The notes beneath the pieces are model-generated. The model did no database searches. It worked only from the letters and a program-made list of their open reading frames with translations, and was not told the origin of the DNA. A program made the translations under genes and the position numbers. DNA of 64,000 bases from Hyperoplus lanceolatus (taxonomy: Eukaryota > Chordata > Actinopteri > Uranoscopiformes > Ammodytidae): NCBI GenBank assembly GCA_026929865.2, contig CM049398.1, positions 23,107,501 to 23,171,500 on the forward strand. Direction: 5' to 3'. This document shows positions 3,001 to 62,330 of the stretch, piece by piece (the stretch's first letter is position 1; each line of letters starts with the position of its first letter).

Positions 3001-4217
3001 TTCCGTTGTGTTTTGTACCAGTTTTGCTTATGGTAAAGGACATGGAAGAGCCAGCTGTCGAGTGCAATGCTTTTTACATGCAGAGCCGATGACAAGGATT
3101 ATCTAATTGTAATTCACATTAAAGTACACAAATGCGGAAATGACAACAACAACGGAGATTCAATTATACATAGCGGTTTGAAGCCAGAAAGGCTTTTCCA
3201 GTAGGGCTGATCGAAGTAATGGAGTGGAACCAGCAAATGGTGTTCTACTAACTGGCCAAATTTGTCGTGCAGAGCTCCACATTTGTACATGTTGTGCGAT
3301 TACAACTGGCATGCTGCGACTTTAGGAACTAAAAAACAAACACATGTTCACATGTCCATGTCCTTCACATGATTTACATTGTACATAAGTATCAGTGGAA
3401 ACAAGCTGGTATGTCCTTTTTGTTTTTCAATGACAAAACCTTCGCAGTCTTGTTTGTATTACACTGTATGTTTGATGCATGGCTTTGTATGCGTCTGAAC
3501 AGAAAGTTCTTCTATGTGTCCTTCTAAATGGCATAGACCAACAAGGTGTTTTGTTGGAAAAACTCCATGTATTCAGATGGACATTAACCAGAAGCAATCC
3601 AATGGAAAGGAATTATATATCTTAACCTCTCAGCCCAGTATCACCATGGAATTACATTCATATAAGAAGATACTGCACATCACAATGTATGTGCATGTCC
3701 AATGTATGCCAGGCTCAGTATACAGTGCCAGTGTAGAAAGCAGCAGCTATGTGTGCAGTGAAGTGGAAAGTTAGAGTGTTGAGGTCAGGGTGGGTCATGG
3801 ACATATTGTACATCTGTCAGCATTTCCCATCACAGAGCCACATTTAATGTTATTTTTATAAAAGCAAACCCACCATCTTTCCTGAATCTTTAACTATACT
3901 GTAGAAACCATATGCAGGTACTATAGAAAGCAACATTTGTACAAACATAAAAAATACAAATGATTTTGCAGAACCTTCTTACATTAATATCCTTGTCTGC
4001 CAAATTTGGCTTAAAAACAACTGAATAAAGAGTGGTAGAAACATTTGTGTTTATTTATTTCTGATATGTTTGTGTGTGCTGTGTTTCTATTTGCTGTAAC
4101 CAGGTGCAACCCAACCAAATGAACATCCAAATACTTGTTGTGCCAGAAGACTCCACTGATTTGATTGTGGTTCAGTACATGTGCTCAAATCACTGTTCAT
4201 CTAAATTTAAACTGCTC
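1..4217. other. Gene-poor unique sequence
   Basis: No gene, transposon terminus or microsatellite of note was recognised. Open frames here (the longest about 120 codons, at 165-527 on the plus strand) have no recognisable motif and biased, low-complexity composition, so they are treated as chance. A short G run lies near 1968. The region is AT-rich and looks like ordinary intergenic or intronic fish DNA. Confidence 0.6.
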
Positions 4218-11546: not shown

Positions 11547-12437
11547 TCATTTACAATTTAAAAAAATAAACAGTTGAAAAAGAAATAAAATTTCCAGACT
11601 AAATAAACCATACTTCTGTATGATGGGACAGTGATGGTATAAATTAGATTTTTTGTCCAGAATTTTAAGAGCCTTTTTATAGGATTTGCGAATCAGTGAC
11701 AGGGCAGTTGTATTTGCTTTTGTATTATTCTTAAACGAGGAGGAATCAAAACCATAAATATCTTGGGCCTTAGACCCTTTAAGATTAGTTAAAATTTTAT
11801 ATATCTCTTCTTCATTTACCTCTTGAAGATTAAAAACTGGATGTTCATAGTTAAGTGTGGAGATAAGTACATTCCGATGACCAAAAGTTTTTGCTAATTG
11901 CTCAACTGACTCCTTAAAGAAGGTGTTAAAAGCCAGTGCAATTTCTCTATCATCACTTGAGATACTTCCATTAATATTTAGCTCAAGTGCATGGTTTCCT
12001 TTTGGCTGTTTTCTGGCCATTGTATTAAGGTGTTTCCATATCTGTTGGCCATTACCTCTTGCCTGGTTAATAAGGCCAATGAAATAGTTTGCTTTAGATT
12101 TCCGGAGCATGCTTGTTACTTTATTCCTCAGCCCTTTAAATATCCTATAATCACTATTCAATTTACTTTTTAGGGCAGTTTTAAGTGCATGATCCCTTTT
12201 CCTCATTAGGCTCCATATCTCATCATTTAACCAAGGTAGATTAGCTTTTTTATGCCCATGTATACATTTCTTAACGAATGTATCCTTCACACCACTAATA
12301 ATGCTAGAGAAGAGTGTGCACTTGTCATTTAAAGAAATGTCATCATTTTTAAAATCACACCAATCTAATAGTTTTAACTGTCCCTCGAACAAGTGCATCC
12401 TTCCTAGGAATTTTGTATGAAATCTTTTTACTTTCAT
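11547..12437 (-). pseudogene. LINE ORF, linker and deleted reverse transcriptase
   Basis: A 296-codon frame. Residues 1-210 match the inter-domain linker of L2/CR1-type LINEs (LPWLNDEIWSLMRKRD, then RDHALKTAL and a long basic helix-like segment). The reverse transcriptase begins at about residue 215 with ILTNLKGSKAQDIYG. Instead of the fingers and palm, the frame passes after about 25 residues into ALKILDKKSNLYHHC, which in copy 2 (43834-43890) lies near the C-terminus. No F/Y-A-D-D box is present. It then ends in unrelated hydrophobic residues. The internal deletion is in frame. Confidence 0.8.
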
Positions 12438-12807
12438 GTTTGTAAATAAACCTTTTCTTTGTCAGTTTCCGACATACCAACACTAGATTATGGTCTGAAA
12501 TACCAGTAATGAAGTTATATGATACAGTGATCCTCTCTGGTCGATTGCAGAATATCAAGTCAATCTGTGTATTAGAACACTGTGTAATTCGAGTCGGCCC
12601 ATTAACCATTTGGGACAGATTATGTTTACCAGTGATATCCTTAAGTTTCCTCCTGTCTGGTTTGCTAGACCAGTTAATATTGAAATCACCAAGGATCACA
12701 AATTCCTTCCCAGTGTGTTCAAGGTTAGATACAAGTGATTTAAATTCATCATAAAAATAACTACTTGCTGACGGTGGTCGATATAAGCAGACAATTATAA
12801 AGGACAT
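12355..12807 (-). pseudogene. LINE ORF, second half of APE endonuclease
   Basis: A 150-codon frame that continues the endonuclease. It shows LYRPPS, then GDFNI with the catalytic Asp and Asn, then DLIFCN, and finally SDHNLV with the Asp-His pair that ends the domain. All the family landmarks that this half should carry are visible. The last ~20 residues overlap the next frame at 12437 out of register, marking a second frameshift near 12400. It forms one broken gene with the segments on either side. Confidence 0.8.
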
Positions 12808-13504
12808 GTTTCACTGTCAGTTCATATTGAGTGCTCCGAAAGCAGTCCTTAATGTATAAAAGTAGACCACCGCCTCGTCCAGTTTGTCTGTCCTGTCTAT
12901 AAATGTTATATCCTGGCACGGCAAAAACAGATTCTGGTGAATTCGCCGTTAGCCACGTTTCTGATAGTCCTAAAAAGTCGAGATTAGAATCTGACAGAAG
13001 CTTGCAAAGTTCATCAGTCTTGGATACAATACTACGAACATTCAGATGCCCTCCCAGGAGTCCCGGCGGCTTAGCGCGAGGATTCCAGAGGATTTTGGCA
13101 TGGTTTACGGTTTGGATAGAGAGATGGTCACGTCTCTGTTGCAACTTCAGATGGAAAGTATTGCAAGTTCCTACCTGTTTCGTTGGTCCAGTTTGTGTAT
13201 TCCATGCCGCTTGAACTGGAGAGGATATATCCACAGAAGTAGGCCCAGGGTTGAGCTGGATATCCCCAGCAAGGAGTAGCGTGAAGGCCAGGTAGGACAA
13301 TTGTTTGTATGGGTAATGTCGCTTCCGTCTGTGGTTTACGCACGTTGTTTTAGTTGATTTGGCTGACGGCATTACTGCGCGTGTATTGATGGCTGCGTAG
13401 ATTATATGATGTCCAAAAGTTATTGTCGTGGCAGAAGACGAGATAGATAGGCCCGAGTGTTCCCATTGTCGTGGACACCAGCAGGCACGAGTTGATAGCA
13501 CCAT
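12761..13504 (-). pseudogene. LINE ORF, N-terminal part: 2A-like peptide and first half of endonuclease
   Basis: A 247-codon open frame starting with ATG. A basic stretch near residues 59-63 and a hydrophobic stretch (about 70-79) precede GDIQLNPGP at residues 80-88, a 2A-like motif. From about residue 150 it enters the APE-type endonuclease: LNVRS carries the conserved Asn and LGLSETWL the catalytic Glu, followed by a Tyr-Arg-Gln-Asp and triple-Gly segment that fits the family. The frame leaves the domain near residue 225. The rest continues in another frame at 12807, so a frameshift lies around 12810-12840. In the intact family this would be the start of the single large ORF2-like polyprotein. 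Confidence 0.8.
13241..13267 (-). other. 2A-like ribosome-skipping motif in the LINE ORF
   Basis: Codons read GDIQLNPGP after a Leu-rich stretch. The 2A consensus is D-(V/I)-E-x-N-P-G-P, with the break before the last Pro. Here Gln replaces Glu. N-terminal 2A-like peptides are known from APE-type non-LTR retrotransposons. Whether the Gln variant is active cannot be told from the sequence. Confidence 0.7.
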
Positions 13505-13781
13505 ACAATGTCAATGTGTCAGACATCCATGTCACACACACTTTCAATGTCCCAAAATTCTCCTCATACAGGTTTATACTAGATTTTTACTCATTAAGTC
13601 CCTTAGTGACATATACTCAACATCCTGGTGTGGTTGTCACGTGACAGCCATGTGACTGTGTCAGGAAGTGACTTCCCAAAGATTGCAGGGTGACAGCTGC
13701 ACACAATTAGGGAAATTAGCAAATTTCAAAAGCTTGTTTTTTGTTACTAAAGGTGAGTTAAAACCCATTTAACACTTCTAA

Positions 13782-36322: not shown

Positions 36323-37528
36323 GGGGAGACCGGGGTAAGTAGGCACACTTTTTACTCTAGTGAGAATTGCTCATCACCTAAACATCGTTCAATGGTCATT
36401 CCTACATTAAATTGAAGCTTAAGGTGTTGGCTTGAAATGTTTACTGCTCGCTTTTTCTAACTTATTGTAATAAAGAAGAAATTTACCATCAAAGACACTC
36501 TAACACATTGTGGGGTTGTTTGTCACAATGTTATCTTTTTGGGAAAAATCTTAAAAAGAAGGCAAGAAAGCAGAACTACATTTGGAAGTTTAATTTCATT
36601 GTCAAGTTGAAAAATAGGCCTACATGACTTTATGCATCTTAACACAAAATAAAATAACAACATAAAGAACAAAACAAATAGGTCTAACAATAATAGCCTA
36701 CTCAACTAGGATACACACATTCACTATCTGAGTTACAGTGATGGCAAATGTAGGGTCTGCTCACTCTAATTAAGCAGAGATTGTGTGCCCACTGGTTGCA
36801 CATACAACACTTCTCCCATACCTCCCCTGAACGGCTGTTGGAGAACGTTTCCATACAAACCAAACTATCCTCTTCATCTGATGAAGATTCCTCCTCCTGT
36901 CTCTTTCTCTTCTGTTTCTTCTTCCCCAGCTGGGGTGGAGTGCACTGGGGTGCAGTAGCCTTGGCAACTGGTCTAGTTTGGGATGCACTGGGTCGTTTTG
37001 ATTTTGTTGCCCTTTTTCTCTTTTGCATGCTAGCTGCCTTTCCTGCTCAATTCTCTCCTTCTCTGGGGTGTCAGTGAGGATACAGCTTGACATTTCATTT
37101 TGTTATTGGGTTCCTTTCCTGGCTGCACCCTTTGGATAACATGTGACAACCAACCCCCCAAAAAATGTGACGACCAACCCCAACTGGAATTTATTGCTAG
37201 CATCAAGGCCAACAACCATCTGACAACTAATTAGCTTGCTAAAAACAATCTAAACTATAGCTTACCCTTCACACTTTTTAGGGTAACAAGTGTTTTGTTA
37301 TAAACCCATTGTGTAAAAGCCTAGAAGAAAAATACTGAGGAGCTAAACATTTTAAATTTGACATGAAAAACACTAACAGTCCTCTCACCTCAAATTCAGA
37401 CTATGTAGGTGACCTCTGATCCCAGTTGTGGATATTTACATACCAAAATTTAACAGACAGCGCCTTCTGGTTCCGAGATATAACGATTGTGACAACCTAC
37501 CCGTGTGAGAAATTACCTCGTTCTCCCC
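36323..37528 (-). mobile_element. Pogo-type (Tc1/mariner) DNA transposon, transposase mostly deleted
   Basis: The left end is GGGGAGACCGGGGTAA and the right end reverse-complemented is GGGGAGAACGAGGTAA. TA lies on both sides, the duplication of Tc1/mariner elements. A transposase C-terminus is encoded at 36702-37093 on the minus strand. The word GTGACAACCAACCCC occurs at 37143 and, with one or two changes, at 37167 and 37489, and inverted at 36512, close to the terminal sequence itself. The catalytic core is missing. The termini resemble the three-copy family at 38.5, 49.7 and 61 kb. Confidence 0.75.
36702..37093 (-). pseudogene. Pogo/Jerky-like transposase C-terminus with PHD-like finger
   Basis: Two overlapping minus-strand frames make up the remnant. 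The upstream one gives ILTDTPEKERIEQERQLA, a segment found after the DDE domain of fish Tigger/pogo transposases. The downstream one (36702-37028, 108 codons) is Lys/Arg-rich, then acidic (EEESSSDEED), then a zinc-finger-like stretch: Cys, ETFSNSRSGEVWEKC, CMCNQWAHNLC, and YICHHC. The first ligand expected as Cys-x-x-Cys reads Ser-Leu-Val-Cys, so one cysteine is lost. The two frames differ by a frameshift near 37030. The DDE catalytic domain is absent, so the gene is dead. Confidence 0.7.
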
Positions 37529-38477: not shown

Positions 38478-39936
38478 TAGGGGAGAGTGGGGTGAGTTGT
38501 GCCAGTGGGGAAGTTGTGCCACCCCTTGTTTCTAGAAAACCATAGAAGAAATTGGAAATGTGACCACATATTTAAGAAGAGCCATCCATTTGACTTATCC
38601 TGTAAAGAAGGGAGAAACATGGAATAAGATATAAGCACATTTAAGCTCAAAAACCTTTTTTTTGCCTTTCAAAAATGTCCAATGATCAAGGTTTTTTGAT
38701 TATTGTGTCTGAACAATGATAAACACGTTCGAAAACATTTGACACATGTTTTAGTGCTTTAGTATGCTACACTTTGTGTCTATAGTTAGCACGATGTCAG
38801 CCCTAAACTGCTGCATCATGCTTATTATCCAAAATTCTTAGGTTGGGATGATTTGTGAAATAACAATAACCAAAATAAAAGACAGAAAGCCCAGACATCC
38901 ACACAGGGGCGTAGAACCAAATTCTGGGCCCCTATACAAAAAGTCCTGATGGGCCCCCTGAAAGGCGGTCTTACAATACACATGGCTCTCTGAGCCAGAT
39001 AACTCCACAATACATTTATTTGAGGAATGACCAAATCATTACTTTTACCGGTGTTTCTGCCAGAAAATGTCTTAGTCAAGGTGGTCACTGGCCACGGTCA
39101 CAGGAGGCGCGGCAAAAATGTTGGGGGTATTTTGCTCAAAGATGCCAATGCGCACTTTAGAAATAAACAACTGTTTATTTGAATACAAAAATACAACAGA
39201 CACTGACCTTATAGTTGTGCAATTTTGTTTGCTATGTGCAGGTAAAATTTTACGGACAGTACAAAACACAATTAAAGAAAACTTCTACTGCTTTGGTGCA
39301 ATGCTATGCAGACACACTAAATACAAATAATAGACCATACACTTGTGTATGCACAACAAGTGCAAATTCAACTTTTTAAAGTTCCTTTATGGATGGGGGG
39401 CTGTGATTATTGTGGACAATAGGCCTACTGTGATATGATAGCCTATAATTCATTAATGGTTATTTTGAGCCTACTTGCTTGATTTATTTTTAAATACAAA
39501 GGTTATTGGTCGTTTTGGAACATGTCTTTCCCAATTTAAAACATAAAAATAAAGAAGCATTGAAAATTCAGAAAATAAATCTTCTTGGCCTACACTAGCA
39601 TGCTGTTATACAAATAACTCAATAGTTGAAATAATACATACAATGTGTTTTCCCCTTAAAATGTCTAAATGCATTTCAAAGACAGTAACAGTGTGGCACT
39701 TCTTTAAACTTACTGAAACTTGCAGGGGCCATCACTCTCATGTATTTATCAGACTTTTCTCTGCGCTTTCTGAGCTGATAGATAGGTTGTGTTGCCACAG
39801 TGATGTGGAGTCTTAAACTGTTCTAGCTTTGCCAGCACTTATATCTGTACAGCTAAATTTCCCCATAGAAACATCGCTGCGTTTATTTTCGCCACAAGTT
39901 CAATTCAATGTCGGCTTGCTCCTGCTTACTCTCCCG

Positions 39937-40837
39937 CAGAGCCGGCCCAAGCCTTCAGGGGGCCCTAAGCGAAATATGATTAGGGGGCCCCTCTCCAATG
40001 TTAGCGCTGCTGAAACTATAGATCTTTCTTAAATATCATTCACACACCCAGTGTTTTCCGCTAGTGCCTCCACTGTGCGGCTGTGCGAAAATATTAGACA
40101 GCCGAGATTCAGACCCTCTTAGGGGGTCCGGGGGTATGCCCCCCCGGGAGATTTTTTGTAACCTTTTTAAAGTGAAATGCATGAATCTGGTGCACTTTGA
40201 GAGGAAAATTAAGAGGCTAAATCTGAGAAATCTTGTGTGAACAAATAATTTGGAGACACTGGGTCAGATGAATTAGAAGCTATTGAAGAAGGACACATGG
40301 ATTTTCCATAAAAATATTAATATAAAATAAAATATTATGGTTCGGGCTTGGAGCTCTTTTTCTTTTACGGGACATATTTCTCCATAATATAGTGAATGCA
40401 TTTAAATGCAGTGTGAGGGACGAAGCAGAAGAACTCTGTTATCCAGCTACTGTATCTTTTTTTCCACAGACAAGGCTGACATAGGCTATAAACTATACAC
40501 AGTGCATGGGCAACTGAGGGCAGCCCCATTTCCAATTGTTTTTAAATAAACTCAATACACACTGTGCATGGATGTGAACGTGACATGATCAGATAATTTC
40601 GGATTTCCTCCGAGATGAACTAATTACATTTTTAGGCTATTAATTATCTAGACCAAAACATTTTATTCCTTTTTTTGGATGATAACTCACATTTGCATAG
40701 TATGATGTTAATATCAAACACACAAACTAAAAAAAAAAAAAAAAAATTTTTTTTTTTTTTTTTTTTTTAGGGGGCCCCCCAGGCAGTCGGGGGCCCTAAG
40801 CGGCCGCTTAGTTCGCTTATGCCTCGGGCCGGCTCTG
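39937..40837. mobile_element. hAT element nested inside the hAT
   Basis: Ends CAGAGCCGGCCCAAG and, reverse-complemented, CAGAGCCGGCCCGAG. CTCTCCCG is duplicated exactly at 39929-39936 and 40838-40845. The 901-bp unit is non-coding. It carries an A18-T22 palindrome (40729-40768), GGGGGCCCCCC, a module shared with 17767-18753 (near 40095-40215) and a module shared with the centre of the foldback MITE at 50874 (40465-40655). Confidence 0.9.
40729..40768. repeat. A18-T22 homopolymer palindrome
   Basis: Eighteen A are followed directly by twenty-two T, a self-complementary block next to GGGGGCCCCCC in the nested hAT. Confidence 0.9.
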
Positions 40838-41082
40838 CTCTCCCGCACACATGCCTAAGGCATGGCCCCTGATCTCCTTGCAAGGGTCAGGGGCCTATCA
40901 TGAGCCAGTCAATTATTTCTTTTTTTGAAATGGCATTGTTCAGGGCCTTCGAAGATCGGGGCCCCACATTCAGCTTAAAAAAAAAAAAAAAAAAAAATTT
41001 TTTTCTGATGGGCCCCCCTCTGCCTTGGGCCCCCCCGTGACTGTCACACTATCCCCCGCAGTCCGTCAGCCCTGCATCCACA

Positions 41083-41202
41083 TATAAACAAAGATAGTAG
41101 TGCAGAAGTAAGATAGTTAATGGGGAGGAAAAACCAGGGTGTAGAGATGGGTTTTGAGCCTTGATTTAAAGGCAGAAATGGAGGGGGAATCACATATGCC
41201 AG
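41083..41202 (-). pseudogene. LINE ORF C-terminus captured in copy A
   Basis: On the minus strand the sequence reads CDSPSISAFKSRLKTHLYTLVFPP, shown here with its Ser/Phe and Lys/Thr/His/Leu pattern typical of a non-LTR retrotransposon C-terminus. It continues past the Harbinger insertion at 42410-42460 (YFALAAP-like, LPPD). The same segment lies in copies B and C. The long frame 41117-41428 joins it to Harbinger sequence only by accident. Confidence 0.7.
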
Positions 41203-42409
41203 AGGCCTGTTTCAGGTAGCTTGTTTTACATACTCTGAGTTTAATCCTGCGCTCTGAGTTGGTCAACTCAGAGAACAGTGGATCAGCGTTGGATAAATCA
41301 ACTCTGAGCGTGTTCACTCTGGGTTGATCGCGTGCATAAAAGCCATCGTCAATGGATCGCTGAAAACATGACTCACCATGGAAACAGAAGAAACAAATGC
41401 TTGATCCTCTCACTTCTCCACTTCTCAAAAAAGAAAAAAGAAATCTCCGCTCCTCCCACTAGAGTTAGAAATATTAACGAATGAGCTTATGGTATGGAGA
41501 AGAATTAACGGGTATATTGTCTCATAACTCTGATCTAATCTCCTCGGCAATTCAGAAAAAAACAGAGCAAACAATTTGTTGTCAAGAGAATAATTTTGCT
41601 GCCGTATGAGAAGCCACAGTCTATTTTAAAAAGTTACGCATATCAGCAGTAAAGTATAAAGCTGGCGCGGCACAGCATTACTGACAGTGTTTTATATTCA
41701 CTGTATAATATGTTGGCAAGCTATAGCCTAATACTGTGCAGTAAACAGACACATTAGGTGACAGTTTCCATTGAAGAGCCTGTTTGATTTATTACCAGAT
41801 CCATTTTCCTCAAGTGATCACAGTTTAAATTATTATATAATTTTTATATTCATATTAGGGTATTTAATGAGGCTCGTCTGTGACTTTAGGATCGCACAAG
41901 TGAACAGTAACGATCGCGTGCAGCCGCAGCGTTACATGAATCCACCTGACATAAATCTGTTCAGTGGCACAGACGTTAAAAAGCATACAATACAAATGGT
42001 TTATTAATCGGAATGTAGAGCATGTCACGATGTGTAAAGTGGCCGCCTATATGAACGGCTGAGAACAAGGCTACTGATCAGATAAATGATCAGTCAAAAG
42101 TAAGATCATCAGGAAATGATAAAAACATCCCGATGGAGATTTCTATGGAGTGATTTTGCTTCAAACTGTACAGGGACGCGTGTGATAGTGACACTCTTTC
42201 TTCATCGGAGCTGCAGCGTAAAGCGAGAACAAACTCAGGGTAGGTCTAACCACCTCCCGTGCAGGTTAGACCCATGGCGTATGTTGCCGCAGTAACTGAC
42301 TCTCGGTTGCGCTGAACCTGCTACCTGAAACGGAAAAACCCAGAGTTTCCACTAACTCATAGCGAACAAACTCTGGGTTGCCTCAAAACCAGCTACCTGA
42401 AACAGGCCT
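41203..42409. mobile_element. Harbinger-like DNA element with 3-bp duplication
   Basis: Ends AGGCCTGTTTCAGGTAGC and its exact inverse GCTACCTGAAACAGGCCT. CAG flanks it on both sides (41200-41202, 42410-42412). Copy B shows the empty site at about 50385 (TTGTCAGGTGGCAGG). Subterminal words around ACTCTGAGTT (left) and AACTCTGGGTT (right) are inverted copies. A 78-codon plus-strand frame at 41771-42007 was not recognised. 3-bp duplications and GGCCTGTTTCA-type ends fit PIF/Harbinger. Confidence 0.82.
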
Positions 42410-42480
42410 CAGGTGGCAGTTGGTTCTACAAGGGCGGAGCAGCTAGTGCAAAGTACATTTTTGAGAGTTGTGCCATTGGC

Positions 42481-42690
42481 ATGGCTGTATATGCTGGTCA
42501 CCAAAAGAAAGTAATTGTCTACAGTAGCTCAGAAGAGACTGACATCTCCATTCCACTTAACGAAACCACTGATGAGAGTTAAGATGGCCAGAAAGATGAT
42601 AATGGTGACTTTGTCATTGTGAGCTTTGCAGGTAAAACCATTAGATCTGCTAGGCCTTGTGTAAGAAAATTGTCCTTCAATCTTTGTAAA
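42481..42690 (+). pseudogene. Transposase C-terminal remnant, copy A
   Basis: The frame reads YAGHQKKVIVYSSSEETD, SIPLNETTDES, then TAA in frame, then DGQKDDNGDFVIVSFAGK. The acidic/Ser stretch followed by G-D-F-V-I-V-x-F-A-G-K resembles the C-terminal tail of fish pogo/Jerky-like transposases. An AATAAA follows near 42712. Copies B and C lack the stop. Confidence 0.6.
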
Positions 42691-43043
42691 ATATTTACTT
42701 TATTTACTTTAAATAAACCTTAAATAAGTGATTGTCTAATGGATTTGTCTTGCATTACAGTTTATGAGATATATATACAGTATCAATGGCACAATTTAAC
42801 CCATGGTATTCTCTCCAACGGCACAACTTTCACCACACCGGGGGCAAGTTGTGCCACAAGACAACTTTTATTCCGAAAGCTATATTTCTTAAACAGTTTA
42901 TTTCATATCCAAAGTTCTTGTTGCCGGGGATGCACAACACCCTGATATATATGTACATATTTGAGTTGGAGACTTTACTGTCAAGGCCTCACTTTAAAGT
43001 CACTTTGAGTAAAAAGTGGCACATCTAACCCCGCTCTCCCCTA

Positions 43044-45559: not shown

Positions 45560-45805
45560 CTGTAATTGTACGAAACCAAAGAACACCAGTCATTTTAAAT
45601 ACAAAAGATTGAGAACCAAAGAAAACATAAATACATTAAGGAATAAATTACTGAAACAGAATTGGAGGGTAATGAGGTAGAAGATACTGACAAAGCATAT
45701 AATGGATTTCTTAACGTTTTTAAATCACTTTATGACAAACACTGTCCTGTGAAATAATACAATGATGGACATAAATAGACAACTAGTCCGTGGATCAATA
45801 AGGGT

Positions 45806-46303
45806 TTGAAAAATGCCTGCAAAAAGAAAAATACACTGTATAGAAAACGTATGAAAAATCCAACTGCAGAAGCGGAAAATAAGTATAAAAAGTATAGAAA
45901 TAAATTAACCAATATAATAAGGATATGTAAGAAAGAATACTATAATAAAATACTAGAGAATGACAAAAACAACATGAAAGGTTTATGGAATGTGCAAAAT
46001 AGTATTATTAGAAATGGATCAAAAAATACAGGTTACCCTGAGTATTTTATGGAGAAAGAAAAGACAATAGATAATATGGATGATGTGGTTGATGGTTTTA
46101 ACAGACTCTTCGTAAATGTGGGACCAAATTTGGCAGAAAAAAATTATGACCCAGGATCTGGGAGATCTGATGACAATAATTATGATTTAATAGACATTAA
46201 TCCAAAATCAATGTTTCTAAAAGCAGTGGAAGAGAGTGAAATTATAGAGATTGTTCATAATTGTAAAAACAAGACTTCCACCGACATAATGACATTGACA
46301 TGA
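45806..46303 (+). pseudogene. LINE reverse transcriptase, N-terminal part
   Basis: The frame contains GLKNACKKKNTLYRKRM, the pre-fingers block of this LINE type (preceded by SPWINK in the same frame), then EYYNKIL, FNRLFVNVGPNLAEKN and IIEIVHNCKNKTSTDI. The beginning of the domain upstream of 45806 continues with frame changes (TDKAYNGFLNVFKSLYDKHCP, about 45680-45760). It ends at a stop near 46303, and the gene continues in another frame. There is no functional start: this is internal to the original ORF. Confidence 0.8.
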
Positions 46304-46315
46304 GAATAGTTAAAC

Positions 46316-46649
46316 ATGTCATTGAAGGAATTGCAAAACCACCTACGCACATCTGTAACTTATCATTTCAAACTGGTAAATTCCCAAAAAAAATTAAAAT
46401 TGCAAAAGTCTTACCGCTGTAAAAAACTGGAGACAAACACCACTTCACAAACTACAGGCCTGTTTCACTGCTTCCTCAATTTTCTAATTTTTTTGAAAAA
46501 CTCTTTGCTGCCAGATTTAACAAATTCATCAATACGCACAATTTACTAACTGACAGCCAATACGGCTTCAGACCCAACCGATCCACTTCATTAGCAGTCA
46601 TTGAGCTAATTGAAAAGATAACAAATTCCCTGGACCAAAAGAATTACGC
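46316..46649 (+). pseudogene. LINE reverse transcriptase, fingers segment
   Basis: With frame changes the sequence gives TGKFPKKIKIAKVLPL, then NYRPVSLLPQFSNFFEKL and DSQYGFRPNRSTSLAVIEL, the conserved fingers blocks of non-LTR reverse transcriptases. It is cut off at DQKNYA by the hAT-like insertion. Confidence 0.8.
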
Positions 46650-47543
46650 GCCCCACACACATCCTACCTCTACTGCGCGTCTACCTCGCGTCTGCGTCTG
46701 ACTTTTTGAGGCACGTCTGCAGCGACACTCCCCTTCACCTCAGGAGGCTCGCCTATTTTTTTTCTGAGAGCAGCGCGTCTCTCTCGCGTCTCTGTGCTTT
46801 AACTGATAGAGAAATACTCTGCTGACAGTCATACCAGCAGCATTCACTCTAGTTACACGTTTACCCGGTGTGTTTATTTCAAAATAAAACATCCATCAGT
46901 CGTATACGCGAATAATCCCTTTATTTCACGATTTAATTGTGCAATCAAAATCCGAGGGATTTAAAACCTAATTTTCAATTAGTTCTGGCATTTCATTTTT
47001 GGATAAATGACACATATAGAGATCCAATATAGTGAAGAAATAAAAAAGATCATGATGAGCGCAACAGTTTTCCGTTGCTCTATCTGTGTCTACGGCCTTC
47101 TTCTTCCCTGACCACACCCCCCTCTCTCTCTCTCCCGTATAAATCAGTAAAGTGATTTTTGAAATACTCTGCTGAGAGTCATATTAACTTCATACTGGCA
47201 GCTTTCGCTGTAGTTTCACCATTTCCTGGTGTGTCCCCTTCAAAATAAAACTTCCAACAAGCGAAAACATGGCAAAAAAAAGGAAAAAAAATGGCAATGG
47301 GGCGCACGGATTACTGTCCAGACTCAATATAAATCATATGCATCATAGATGACATGAAATAACCTAATTTTTAATGGGAATTATCTATGAAAACTCTATG
47401 TAGAAAGATAGGGCTTTTAGAAGCAGCGCTGCAGCAGCAGCAGCTGCTGAGACGTTGCATGTGTGTCCGAGAAAAGTCCGAGAGAGGCAGCAGTAAGGTA
47501 AGGCGACGCGCTCCAGAGGTAGACGCAGGATGTGTGTGGAGGC
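46650..47543. mobile_element. hAT-like terminal-inverted-repeat element inserted in the LINE
   Basis: The left end is GCCCCACACACATCCT and the right end reverse-complemented is GCCTCCACACACATCCTGCG, both followed by a GCGTCTACCTC word. The flanks AATTACGC and CGTTATGC are similar but not identical, compatible with a decayed 8-bp duplication. The LINE frame resumes directly on the far side (VCIDLKKAF), which fixes the borders well. Inside, a ~100-bp segment occurs twice as a direct repeat (about 46809-46905 and 47160-47263). No coding sequence was found. Confidence 0.7.
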
Positions 47544-47551
47544 CGTTATGC

Positions 47552-47713
47552 AGCCTGTGTTTGTATTGATCTCAAAAAAGCATTTTATACCATAAATCAT
47601 GACAGATTAATCAATAAATTAGAACGGTATGGTATCAGGGGGGTTGTATTAAACTGGCTGAGGAGCTATTTACAGAACAAGCAACAGTTTGTGAAGATGG
47701 GTGAACACTTAAA
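47552..47713 (+). pseudogene. LINE reverse transcriptase, first palm segment
   Basis: The frame reads CIDLKKAFYTINHDRLINKL, then [15 protein letters not shown]. It holds the first catalytic block, where F/Y-x-D-x-x-K-A-F supplies an aspartate (here I-D-L-K-K-A-F). The usual Phe-Asp after KAF is replaced by Phe-Tyr. It is interrupted after GEHLN by the next insertion. Confidence 0.8.
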
Positions 47714-47769
47714 TTGACTGTGTATTGGACTGCAGATTCTTAAAAAAAAATAAAATGTATGGGTATATG

Positions 47770-47811
<42 letters not shown>

Positions 47812-47813
47812 TG

Positions 47814-47900
<87 letters not shown>

Positions 47901-48047
47901 GTATATATATAGCTATATAAATATAAAAAAATAAGCCTTTGGCTTCTTCCGTCTCCCTTCGGACAACACAAAGTATGATGTATGAATATTTGCAAGAGAA
48001 AATTGTGTATTGTGTGGAATTGTCCGAAAGAATAATAAATAAACATA
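47714..48047 (+). mobile_element. Insertion carrying a retroelement 3' tail and (TA)n
   Basis: It splits the LINE frame between GEHLN and SCLDIACG. It contains a long (TA)n tract, then GGCTTCTTCCGTCTCCC and AATTGTCCGAAAGAATAATAAATAAA, which resemble the 3' UTR and tail of this same LINE type (compare 49525-49700). It is therefore probably the 3' end of a related LINE inserted here. No target duplication is clear. Confidence 0.5.
47766..47911. repeat. (TA)n microsatellite
   Basis: About 145 bp of TA with occasional GTA interruptions. Confidence 0.93.
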
Positions 48048-48049
48048 TG

Positions 48050-49000
48050 TCATCTTGTTTGGACATTGCCTGTGGGGTCTCCCAGGGGTCAGTATTAGAG
48101 CCAATTATTTTTATTCTCTACATTAATGATATATGCAAAACATCAAAGATTTTACAATTTGTGTTATTTGCAGACGACACTAATATATTTTGTACGGGAG
48201 AGGACTTGCAGCAGCTTCTGGAGTTAATTACAACTGAAATTAGCAAATTAAAAAAGTGGTTTGACAATAATAAATTGTCATTAAATCTAAGTAAAACAAA
48301 AATCATGTTGTTTGGAAATTGTAATTTAAATAATGACGTAAATGTTAAGATTGACGGTGTGAATATTGAAAGAGTGTATGTAAATAAATTCCTTGGTGTG
48401 ACAATAGACCATGAGCTCAGCTGGAAACCTCACATAAAACATGTTAAATCTAAACTGTCACAAAGCATCTTAGTCCTGTGTAAAGCAAAGCATATATTGG
48501 ATCAAAAATCATTGCATATTCTTTACTGCTCAATGATCTTACCTTATTTAAATTACTGTGTGGAGGTCTGGGGGACCACTTACAAAAGCTCACTGCTACC
48601 ATTAGTGACAATACAAAAACGAGCCATAAGAATAATCAATAAAGCTGGATATTATGATCACACCAACCTCCTGTTTTTACATTCCCGGATCATAAAGTTC
48701 AAGGACCTGGTTGAATATCAAGTTGCACAAATCATGTTCAAAGCTAGAAATAAACTGCTACCAGGTAACATTCAAAAACTTTTTTTTGACCGAGAGTTGG
48801 GTTACAATTTGAGGGAACAGTTAAACTTTAAGACACTGGCTGTACGCATGACTTTAAAATGTCATTGCATCTCAATTGGGGGTGTGAAACTGTGGAATGG
48901 GATGAGCATGGAGCTAAAGCAATGTCCAAACATGATCCAGTTTAAAAAAAGGTTCAAAGCAATGATTTTCAAAAGGTACAGGGATGAGGGAGAGAAGTAA
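48050..49000 (+). pseudogene. LINE reverse transcriptase, palm to C-terminus
   Basis: An uninterrupted frame of about 315 codons. It holds [20 protein letters not shown], then FVLFADDTNIF with the catalytic Ala-Asp-Asp, then NKLSLNLSKTKIMLF and NKFLGVTIDHELSWKPHI, and a thumb/C-terminal region (LPYLNYCVEVWG, LFLHSRIIKFKDLVEYQ) to a natural stop. This is the best-preserved protein in the window. It lacks a proper start because its N-terminal half lies upstream behind two insertions. It may be only moderately old, given the intact frame. Confidence 0.88.
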
Positions 49001-49037
49001 GAAGGAAATTATAAATACATAAATAAATAATAATAAT

Positions 49038-49116
<79 letters not shown>

Positions 49117-49206
49117 ATATATGTGTGTGTGTTGTATTGATATATATGGATATATATATACTGAGGGAGAGAAGTAAGAAGGAAAATTATAAATACATAA
49201 ATAAAT

Positions 49207-49280
<74 letters not shown>

Positions 49281-49307
49281 TGTATTGATATATATGGATA
49301 TATATAC
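48985..49307. repeat. Tandem duplication of about 150-177 bp including (TA)n
   Basis: Unit 1 (48985-49161) and unit 2 (49162-49307) both start TGAGGGAGAGAAGTAAG, include ATAAATACATAAATAAATAA, a long TA tract and TGTGTTGTATTGATATATATGG. The duplication starts at the LINE's last codons, so the sequence of the ORF end is repeated. Confidence 0.85.
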
Positions 49308-50109
49308 TGATTGTATATAAATATAGATATATGCATTGTATAGATATATTTAAATTTTAAAAAATCATAGTATATTAAGTTGTATGTATGTATAGATCGT
49401 AAATGTCAAATATAGTATTGCCAATTGTATAGATAGATTGTATAGAGATTATATGGAATACAAGAAGCGAATATAATAAATATTTTTATTTTTTTTACTA
49501 TGGAAAAGGGGTAGGATTAAATAAGTGTATACTTCTTCCTGCTCCTTTTCAGGCAGATCACATCAATACAGATAATTTGTTTTCTTTTTTTCTTTTTGTG
49601 AAGTCATTTAAACATGCATTTTGTTTATTGTATTTTTATGCTTTTCATTTTGTTTTGTATTGTTTTTGATATGTCTGAAATAAAATAAAAAATTCAAATT
49701 CAAAAATTCATATAGGGGAGAGTGGCCTAAGTTGTGCATTTTGGAAGTTGTTCCACCCCTTGTTTCTAGAAAACCGTGGAAGAAATTGGAAATGTGACCA
49801 CATATTTAAGAAGAGCCATCCATTTGACTCCTGTAAAGAAGGGAGACACAAGGAATAAGATTAAAGCACATTTAAGCTAAAAAAAAATGTTTTTTGCCTT
49901 TCAAAGTAAAATTTCTATGATGAAGGTTTTTTTGATTATTGTGTCCGAACAATTATAGACAAGTTTGAAAACATTGACACATGTTTTAGTGCTTTGGTAT
50001 GCTACATTTTGAGTCTATACAGTTAGCACGATGTAAGCCCTAAACTGCTGCATCATGCTAATTATCCAAAATTCTGGGGATGGGGTGATTTGTGCCTAAG
50101 GGCCTGGGT

Positions 50110-50420
50110 GAGTTATAAGTATGTAAGTAAGTAAAATGTATTTATAAAAGCACATTTGTGACAGTTTGCACTGTCCAAAGTGCTGTACATAGTGCATTCA
50201 GTAGGTAAACAATGAAGGTAAAATAACAATAACAAAAATAAAAGACATAAAGCCCAGACATCCACAAATATAAACAAAGATAGTAGTACAGAGGTAAGAT
50301 AGTTAATGGGGAGGAAAAACCAGGGTGTACAGATGGGTTTTGAGCCTTGATTTAAGGCGGAAATGGAGGGGGAATCACATTTGTCAGGTGGCAGGTTCCA
50401 CAAGCAAGGAGAAACTAGAG
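50110..50420 (-). pseudogene. Captured LINE 3' end in copy B
   Basis: On the minus strand it reads from YFALVSPCLWN-like residues through DSPSISA, then the 3' UTR (AGCACTTTGGACAGTGC-like) to a (CTTA)n tail adjoining 50110. All three pogo-type copies share it, so the LINE end was present before the element multiplied. It lacks any catalytic part. Confidence 0.7.
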
Positions 50421-50451
50421 CAAAGTACATTTCTGAGAGTTGTGCCAGTGG

Positions 50452-50685
50452 CATGGCTGTATACGCTGGTCACCAAAAGAAAGTGATTGTCTACAGTAGC
50501 TCAGAAGAGAGTGACATCTCAATTCCACTTAACGAAACCACTGATGAGAGTTCAGATGGCCAGAAAGATGTTGATGGTGACTTTGTCATTGTGAGCTTTG
50601 CAGGTAAAACCATTAGATCTGCTAGGCCTTGTTTAAGAAAATTGTCCTTCAATCTTTGTCAACTATTTACTTTAAATAAACCTTA
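50452..50685 (+). pseudogene. Transposase C-terminal remnant, copy B
   Basis: A 78-codon frame from ATG: MAVYAGHQKKVIVYSSSE, SIPLNETTDESSDGQ, DGDFVIVSFAGKTIRS, ending after NLCQLFTLNKP, followed by AATAAA. It has no in-frame stop, unlike copy A. The ATG probably is not the original start; the catalytic domain that once preceded it has been replaced by the LINE fragment. Confidence 0.6.
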
Positions 50686-50873
50686 AATAAGTAATTGTCT
50701 AATGGATTTGTCTTACATTACAGTTTATAAGATATATAGCAATGTCACAATTCACCCCATGGTATTCTCTCCAACCGCACAACTTACACCACACCGGGGG
50801 CAAGTTGTGCATCAAGACAACTTTTTTTCCGAAAGCTAAATTTCTTCAACAGTTTATTCCAGATCTAAAGTTT

Positions 50874-51349
50874 GGTAACACTTTATAATAACTATCCGTT
50901 GTAACTTGTTAATAGATCATTAGTAAACTCTTAATTAATGATTATTAATGATTTGTTAAGTGTTTGTTAGCAGTTTGTTAAGGATTTATAACAATGGTAG
51001 ATAGTTAATAGCTTAATAATTGAATCAGTTTCATCTGGGAGGTAATCCGAGATTAATTGATCACGTCACGTTCAAGTCCATGGCATGCACAGTGTGTATT
51101 GAGTTTATTTAAAAATATTTGAAAATGGGGCTGCCCTCAGTTGCCCATGCACTGTGTATAGTCTATAGCCTATTTCAGCCTCGTCCCAGATGAACTGATT
51201 CAATTATTAAGCTATTAACTATCTACCATTGTTATAAATCCTTAACAAACTGCTAACAAACACTTAACAAATCATTAATAATCATTAATTAAGAGTTTAC
51301 TAATGATCTATTAACGAGTTACAACGGATAGTTATTATAAAGTGTTACC
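50874..51349. mobile_element. Foldback MITE with ~170-bp arms and 8-bp duplication
   Basis: The arms run inward from GGTAACACTTTATAATAAC and are inverted, nearly perfect copies (about 50874-51047 and 51187-51349). TAAAGTTT is duplicated at 50866-50873 and 51350-51357, and copies A and C have the unoccupied site. The unpaired centre (about 51048-51186) closely matches, inverted, part of the hAT at 39937-40837. GGTAACACTTTA-type MITEs are common in teleosts. It has no coding content. Confidence 0.88.
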
Positions 51350-51481
51350 TAAAGTTTGTATTGCCAGGGATGCACAACACCCTGAAATATATGTATATAT
51401 TTGAGTTGGAGACTTTACTGTCAAGGCCTTACTTTAACGTCACTTTGAGTGAAAAGTTGCACAATTTAGGCAACTCTCCCC

Positions 51482-51854
51482 TACAGTGTTTAGTGAGGCT
51501 AATGTACTAGTTTTGAAAAAAAAAAAATCTAAGAATTGTGCTGAAAGGTGATTTATTTTGGGATTCAGTTGTACTTGTTGTTTCTATCCACTGATTTGAC
51601 GTAATGAATAATGATGACAAAAACTAGGAAAACATCATTTGACAAAAGTTTCTTTATTCCTGCACATTTTGTTGGTTGAAGTGAGACAATGACTGCCACC
51701 AGCATGTCTTATCAGCCAGCTGAATAGGCAAACATTAACTCCATGAGTCAGCCTAGGAAAAAACATTTCAGTAGAAAATATTGGCAATTCTCTACATTCA
51801 TGCTAATGTTTGTTTAACCTCTAATAAAGGAAAATCCAGAATTGATTCCTACAC
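51482..51854. other. No gene recognised
   Basis: A short unique stretch; an A run near 51517. Confidence 0.5.
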
Positions 51855-61051: not shown

Positions 61052-61435
61052 TACGGGAGAGTGGCCTAAGTTGTACCACTTTTTACTCAAAGTGATTTTA
61101 AAGTGAGGCCTTGACAGTTATGTCTCCAACTCAAATACGTACATATATTTCAGGATGTTGTGCATCCCTGGCAATAAAAACTTTGGATCTGGAATAAACT
61201 GTTTAAGAAATATAGCTTTCGGAAAAAAAACTTGTCTTGTGGCACAACTTGCCCCCGGTGTGGTGTAAGTTGTGCCACAAGAGAGACTGCCATGGGGTAA
61301 ATTGTGCCATTGATATATAACTCATAAACTGTAATGCAAGACAAATCCTTAAGACAATGACTTATTTAAGGTTTATTTAAAGTAAATAAAGTAAATATTT
61401 TACAAAGATTGAAGGTCAATTTTCTTTAACAAGGC

Positions 61436-61620
61436 CTAGCAGATCTTGGTGGTTTTGCCTGCAAAGCTCACAATGACAAAGACACCATTATCATCTTTCT
61501 GGCCATCTGAACTCTCATCAGTGGTGTCGTTAAGTGGAATGGAGATGTCAGTCTCTTCTGAGCTACTGTAGACAATCACTTTCTTTTTGGTGACCAGCAT
61601 ATACAGCCATGCCACTGGCA
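61436..61620 (-). pseudogene. Transposase C-terminal remnant, copy C
   Basis: The frame reads KKKVIVYSSSEETD, SIPLNDTTDESSDGQ, VFVIVSFAGKT, ending at a stop. It parallels copies A and B; Gly-Asp before F-V-I-V is changed to Gly-Val. No catalytic core. Confidence 0.6.
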
Positions 61621-61639
61621 CAACTCTCAGAAATGTACT

Positions 61640-61948
61640 TTGCACTAGTTGCTCCGTGCTTGTGACTGCCACCTGACAAATGTGATTCCCCCTCCATTTC
61701 CGCCTTAAAATCAAGGCTCAAAACCCATCTGTACACCCTGGTTTTTCCTCCCCATTAACTATCTTACCTCTGCACTACTATCTTTGTTTATATTTGTGGA
61801 TGTCTGGGCTTTATGTCTTTTATTTTTGTTATTGTTATTTTACCTTCATTGTTTACCTACTGAATGCACTATGTACAGCCCTTTGGACAGTGCAAACTAT
61901 CACAAATGTGCTTTTATAAATACATTTTACTTACTTACTTACTTATAA
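61640..61948 (+). pseudogene. Captured LINE 3' end in copy C
   Basis: Here the LINE end reads on the plus strand, from the block before GTGATTCCCCCTCC through its 3' UTR to TACTTACTTACTTACTTATAA, the (CTTA)n tail, adjoining TCACC of the pogo-type sequence. This gives the intact junction that copy A has lost. Confidence 0.7.
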
Positions 61949-62330
61949 CTCACCTAGGCCCTTTGGCACAAATCACCCCAACCCCAGAATTTTGGATAAT
62001 AGGCATGATGCAGCAGTTTAGGGCTGACATCGTAGCATACTAAATCACTAAAACATGTGTCAAATGTTTTCAAACTTGTCTATAATTGTTCGGACACAAT
62101 AATCAAAAAACCTTGATCATGGAAATTTTACTTTGAAAGGCAAAAAACGTTTTTTTTTTTAGCTTAAATGTGCTTCAATCTTATTCCTTGTGTCTCCCTT
62201 CTTAACAGGATGAGTAAAATGGATGGCTCTTCTTAAATATGTGGTCACATTTTCAATTTCTTCCACGGTTTTCTAGAAACAAGGGGTGGCACAACTTCCC
62301 CACTGGCAAAACTTAGGCAACTCTCCCCTA

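Follow-up and report, generated by a model that had tools for sequence, protein, structure and literature searches.

Three elements in the stretch of Hyperoplus lanceolatus DNA that we analysed (64,000 nucleotides, hereafter the window) are copies of one non-autonomous DNA-transposon family of 1.2-1.3 kb. Our reading, to which we give a probability of roughly 0.83, is that this family is a high-copy, non-autonomous transposon, most likely of the pogo superfamily, in whose founder an antisense LINE 3' end stood where the catalytic part of the transposase would be. The junctions between the LINE-like piece and the transposon are common to copies at different places in the genome, and the C-terminal-side end of the family resembles that of a transposase-encoding pogo element elsewhere in the same genome.

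Architecture of the Copies

Copies A (38480..43041, + strand), B (49715..51481, + strand) and C (61054..62328, - strand) lie where an earlier note on this DNA had placed them, with C inverted. When three mismatches were allowed, a search for TAGGGGAGAGTGGSSTRAGTTGTGC, the motif of the ends, returned six matches in the window, which are the six ends of A, B and C, and none in 100 shuffled sequences, which bears out the shared ends described before. In C, one base is changed at the low-coordinate end (CGGGAGAG). The inverted ends are 24-25 bp long, not counting the TA, and in B are identical at 22 of 24 positions. TA flanks each of the three copies on both sides, as the earlier note had reported (for B at 49713-49714 and 51482-51483). 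At positions 12-13 of the ends, A has GG and both B and C have CC, and the two ends of each copy agree. Since these ends are more than 1 kb apart, their agreement suggests matched evolution or homogenisation.

Without later insertions the copies measure 1,173 bp (A), 1,283 bp (B) and 1,275 bp (C). The great length of A is solely due to two such insertions. The first, of 2,171 bp (38904..41074), has CAGGG ends and an 8-bp duplication (CATCCACA), and the second, of 1,207 bp (41203..42409), has inverted ends AGGCCTGTTTCAGGTAGC and a 3-bp duplication, CAG. A palindromic insertion of 476 bp in B (50874..51349) is flanked by the 8-bp duplication TAAAGTTT. We take the 2,171-bp and the 476-bp insertions to be hAT-like, a name we assign provisionally. 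Part of the large insertion in A (40469-40650) resembles the middle of the insertion in B (188 bp, 86%).

The three copies have a common order: a left arm of about 400 bp, an antisense LINE-like piece of about 320 bp, a putative transposase remnant and the right arm. In the LINE-like piece, on the strand opposite to the remnant, the short end of an ORF is followed by a 3' UTR and then by a (TTAC)n stretch. In B it occupies 50119..50430 on the - strand (edges within a few bases), with the (TTAC)n tail at about 50119-50135; in C it occupies 61629..61948 on the + strand, with the tail at the high-coordinate side. The junction between the LINE-like piece and the remnant (the right junction) is present in all three copies and C has both junctions, but A has lost about 126 bp that comprise the LINE tail and the left, tail-side junction. 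The earlier statement that the three copies share the same junction thus stands for the right side and does not extend to the left junction and LINE tail of A.

Genome Copies and Shared Junctions

The genome searched comprises 806.7 Mb in 527 contigs. A 30-base motif from the remnant, with up to three mismatches, was found at 3,632 sites and its reversed control at none; these are sites of the remnant motif and do not give the share that bears the LINE piece. Both DNA queries contained the LINE piece. With B as query, the best 40 of 4,094 candidates gave 79 matching pieces. Besides B, 39 places were fetched, of which 34 had both ends and five were incomplete (L024, L037, L039, L041 and L047). 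The last of these (C18:3631300-3633600) holds two family copies that are inverted, head to head, each incomplete in the fetched stretch. TA directly abuts both ends in 29 of the 34 extracted copies.

These 34 copies were aligned with A, B and C. In this set of 37, chosen by similarity to B, the right junction is present in every copy and the left junction in 36, the exception being A. As copies at different places have these junctions in common, the LINE piece was already in the founder of the aligned copies. The claim of the earlier note that the LINE end was acquired before the family spread is thereby upheld, and the differing junctions that it had named as the mark of independent insertions did not appear when the genome copies were examined. 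LINEs do insert into transposons and A does differ on its tail side, so one might suppose that the LINE pieces arrived one by one in separate copies of a plain transposon. The shared junctions rule this out for the aligned copies and leave it an exceedingly small probability overall.

Divergence of the parts of the family agrees with this. From a 1,294-bp consensus, the left arm diverges on average by 3.0%, the LINE piece by 2.3% and the right arm by 3.1%; the divergence of the LINE piece does not exceed that of the arms, and the parts therefore have one history.

Identity of the Middle Piece

The middle piece is probably a LINE 3' end. Read in A, its ORF ends with SISAFKSRLKTHLYTLVFPP and a stop. 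Each single copy is broken, and the peptide merged from A, B and C reads LWN, then SPSISAFKSRLKTHLYTLVFPP, then a stop. LWN together with SPSISAFKSRLKTHL is, as we assume, typical of the C-termini of LINE ORF2.

The alternative is that the middle piece is another repeat or a host fragment that ends in (TTAC)n by chance. Two observations lend it some weight. Firstly, the likeness of the merged peptide to two other LINE ends in the window is weak, with scores that were reached by 16 of 1,000 and 446 of 1,000 shuffles. Secondly, a query with the LINE piece alone revealed no free LINE parent among the best 40 of 1,212 candidates: of these 20 were fetched (nine at places met before, including B and C, and 11 at new ones), and all 20 carry sequence of both transposon arms, in part of them incompletely. 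Against it stands the layout of the piece, in which the close of an ORF (with LWN and SPSISAFKSRLKTHL), its stop, the 3' UTR and the tail with its 4-bp unit follow one another in the correct order and on the correct strand. We therefore regard a non-LINE origin as unlikely and keep the label of LINE 3' end given by the earlier note, which is supported by the short ORF motif and the microsatellite tail, but not by a free parent among the matches listed. A target-site duplication around the LINE-like piece was not detected beyond chance: the score obtained there was equalled or exceeded in 870 of 2,000 shuffles.

The window contains LINE sequence elsewhere as well. A LINE at 45779-49710 has an RVT_1 domain (47927-49000) followed by an AAATTC-rich, tail-like stretch, which stops just before the TA where B inserted. 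A second LINE on the - strand (11547-13510) has an Exo_endo_phos endonuclease domain, spread over several frames.

Relation to Pogo Elements

The genome contains a 2,675-bp element, L053 (C21:26752237), that is flanked by TA and has the ends GGGGAGAACGGGG. It encodes a 473-aa open frame of a pogo transposase with a DDE_1 domain (E 1.5e-20) and, in another frame, a PHD-like C-terminal ORF. L053 has GGGGAGA ends and TA in common with A, B and C, and its end on the C-terminal side is similar to that of the family over about 42 bp. It differs from them in its length and in its C-terminal module, which is PHD-like, and it has no match to the LINE piece. Over the C-terminal-side end, A scores 37 against L053 where the best of 1,000 shuffles scores 22, the old-subfamily consensus (see section "Subfamilies and Mosaic Copies") scores 32 against 24, and the young consensus passes narrowly (27 against 26). 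For the other, left end, the score against L053 was reached by 3 (A), 69 (old) and 53 (young) of 1,000 shuffles, so that for the old and the young consensus this similarity does not exceed chance.

The earlier note missed a fourth, related element, D (36323..37528, - strand), which lies about 1 kb from A, is TA-flanked, has GGGGAGA ends and is without the LINE piece. D matches L053 in two blocks with 83% identity, and about 1.4 kb of L053 is absent between the blocks. This indicates that D arose by internal deletion from a pogo element like L053, an origin that A, B and C do not share. D retains a PHD-like C-terminal ORF (36702-37046), the peptide of which also matches two further loci besides L053, L063 and L068 (E 1e-8 and 6e-6). 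Compared with the PDB, this peptide yielded weak matches alone (E 0.54 and worse), a PHD finger at E 1.1 among them. When the ends were compared with those of D, A and C passed and B failed. The ends of D and L053 have GG at positions 12-13.

On the similarity of its ends to those of L053, we consider with moderate confidence that the A/B/C family is pogo-like. The TA duplication and the short inverted ends of 24-25 bp are as in the pogo superfamily. Pogo families are reported to use TA and mostly to have ends shorter than 40 bp (PMC7386202), and in the Passer group most ends are shorter than 30 bp and ray-finned fish are among the hosts (PMC9976928, PMC7386202). Passer and other pogo elements thus resemble A, B and C in TA duplications, short ends and occurrence in ray-finned fish, a likeness drawn from their descriptions. 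The elements reported there are autonomous and have DDE domains, whereas B has none (PMC9976928, PMC7386202).

The earlier note had also called the ORF next to the LINE-like piece a transposase C-terminal remnant. In B this open stretch is indeed present in the list of ORFs (50435..50603, + strand), running from SGMAVYAGHQKKVIVYSSSEE to DGDFVIVSFAG and followed by a donor-like GTAAAA. Its peptide, though, matches the DDE_1 loci with E 0.36 at best when a broken family copy at one of them (L056) is set aside, and Pfam gave nothing convincing for it (RES at E 0.25, below the cut-off). We treat it as a putative transposase C-terminus. The six-frame Pfam scan, which covered B, found no DDE domain; the single match was DUF6219 in one frame at E 0.45, below the cut-off. 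Rfam gave no match, and relatives were not found in viral and bacterial contig collections.

The genome search for DDE_1 yielded 23 matches, one of them in L053, with all 27 candidates scored, and about 1.5 kb on either side of each match was examined. None of the 23 lies between arms of the family within that distance. L056 is the only DDE_1 locus with family arms, and these belong to the broken copy, which lies beside the match and not around it. An autonomous relative with a DDE domain and the same ends, which the earlier note had proposed to look for, is hence not among these loci.

The family might instead belong to mariner, Tc1 or another TA-targeting group. B has no remaining DDE domain, and none of the pogo transposases that our search revealed matches the peptide of the remnant, which would suit such an assignment. 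The similarity of about 42 bp to L053 on the C-terminal side argues against it, as do the TA and the ends below 40 bp, which are reported for most pogo families (PMC7386202). Membership of another group therefore seems rather improbable. The pogo label of the earlier note is retained on the strength of the ends, but not on a DDE domain of the family itself.

Subfamilies and Mosaic Copies

The genome copies were divided by eye, on identity to the consensus, into an old and a young group; 50 diagnostic columns were chosen after that, and the division is descriptive. The old group has 11 copies that diverge by 2.6% from their own consensus. The young group has 23 copies that diverge by 1.3%, a value that is not the mean of the family, since the genome copies are the best search matches and young copies are over-represented among them. 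The two consensus sequences differ by 4.0%. The existence of copies at about 1% from their consensus shows recent activity.

C belongs to the old group, and A cannot be placed cleanly in either. In B, which is a mosaic, the arms are young and the LINE tract (about 50234-50398) is of the old subfamily. L023 and L028 are mosaic as well, the former also with an old LINE tract, and the old copies L035 and L045 bear some columns of the young type. The mosaics B, L023 and L028 point to exchange among copies, by gene conversion or template switching.

The mosaic structure of B explains the unusually low divergence between B and C in the LINE part. There, 9 of 336 columns differ; for the right part the figure is 50 of 553 (Fisher p 1.4e-4), for the left arm 20 of 366 (p 0.09), and the lowest B-C divergence in a window of 280 columns was reached by 3 of 5,000 shuffles. 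This low divergence had at first suggested that the LINE piece arose separately, a reading that was dropped because the 50 diagnostic columns identify B as a mosaic.

Origin and Spread of the Chimera

In the founder, an internal deletion would have removed the catalytic part of the transposase, and the LINE end would have come to lie in the gap. D is a plain internal deletion without LINE and shows that such deletions occur in the pogo group of this genome. The LINE end could have arrived in two ways. Firstly, it may have inserted itself into the element by target-primed reverse transcription, 5'-truncated and with its tail kept. Secondly, it may have served as filler in an incomplete gap repair after excision. 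The reverse-transcription route is favoured by the tail at one edge together with the 5' truncation at the opposite edge; the absent flanking duplication lends this route no support, and age could have erased one. By either route, the capture of the LINE end was a single event for the copies seen and preceded the divergence of the old from the young subfamily.

Afterwards, a transposase acting in trans would cut at the GGGGAGAG ends and reinsert the element at TA. If the element moves in this way through its ends, the LINE piece would be passive cargo. LINE enzymes recognise a LINE 3' end with its tail, and one could imagine an element with two modes of movement, in which a pogo transposase acts via the ends and a LINE reverse transcriptase copies antisense RNA via the LINE tail. 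The good conservation of the LINE 3' end in young copies would fit this. The LINE part is just slightly less diverged than the arms, however, and the 34 extracted copies, which were picked as long matches to B, extend as far as the ends of the transposon, in most cases with TA; none of them stops at the LINE tail. A second mode of movement is for these reasons very improbable, and passive transport by a transposase remains our preferred explanation.

Precedents and Implications

Chimeras of this kind are already known, and the A/B/C family is a further example. A close precedent is MER6/MER6A of mammals, described as a Mariner-derived MITE with an Ac1-like V-SINE that spread as a chimera, for which the authors infer an internal deletion followed by retrotransposition into the MITE (PMC6887750). 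MER6, a non-autonomous MITE of the Tc1/Mariner group, resembles A, B and C in that it spread together with a retroelement piece and its tail (PMC6887750). MER6 has a V-SINE cargo and an autonomous relative in turtles, Mariner-2_CPB (PMC6887750), while A, B and C have a LINE-like 3' end and pogo-like ends. MER6 is reported to be no longer active (PMC6887750), whereas our family has copies about 1% from the consensus. One retroelement/transposon junction common to the copies, by which a MER6-type chimera is recognised, was also found here (all 37 copies for the right junction, 36 of them for the left). Pack-TIR elements of animals (Ssk-FB4) form a second precedent: there too a TIR transposon spreads foreign sequence, with the same chimera flanked by different duplications (PMC8277862). 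The cargo of Pack-TIR elements is host gene sequence (PMC8277862), and here it is a retrotransposon-like end. Among the papers listed in our literature searches, none describes a pogo MITE that carries the end of a LINE, and the family may be listed in Repbase.

The family is a clean, recent and numerous case of class I-like sequence that is carried by a class II element. Its two subfamilies of different age, its mosaics and the neighbouring element D, which has no LINE, would make it possible to reconstruct in what sequence deletion, capture and spread took place. For annotation it means that many of the LINE-like matches found in this genome could be cargo of a transposon and not LINE insertions.
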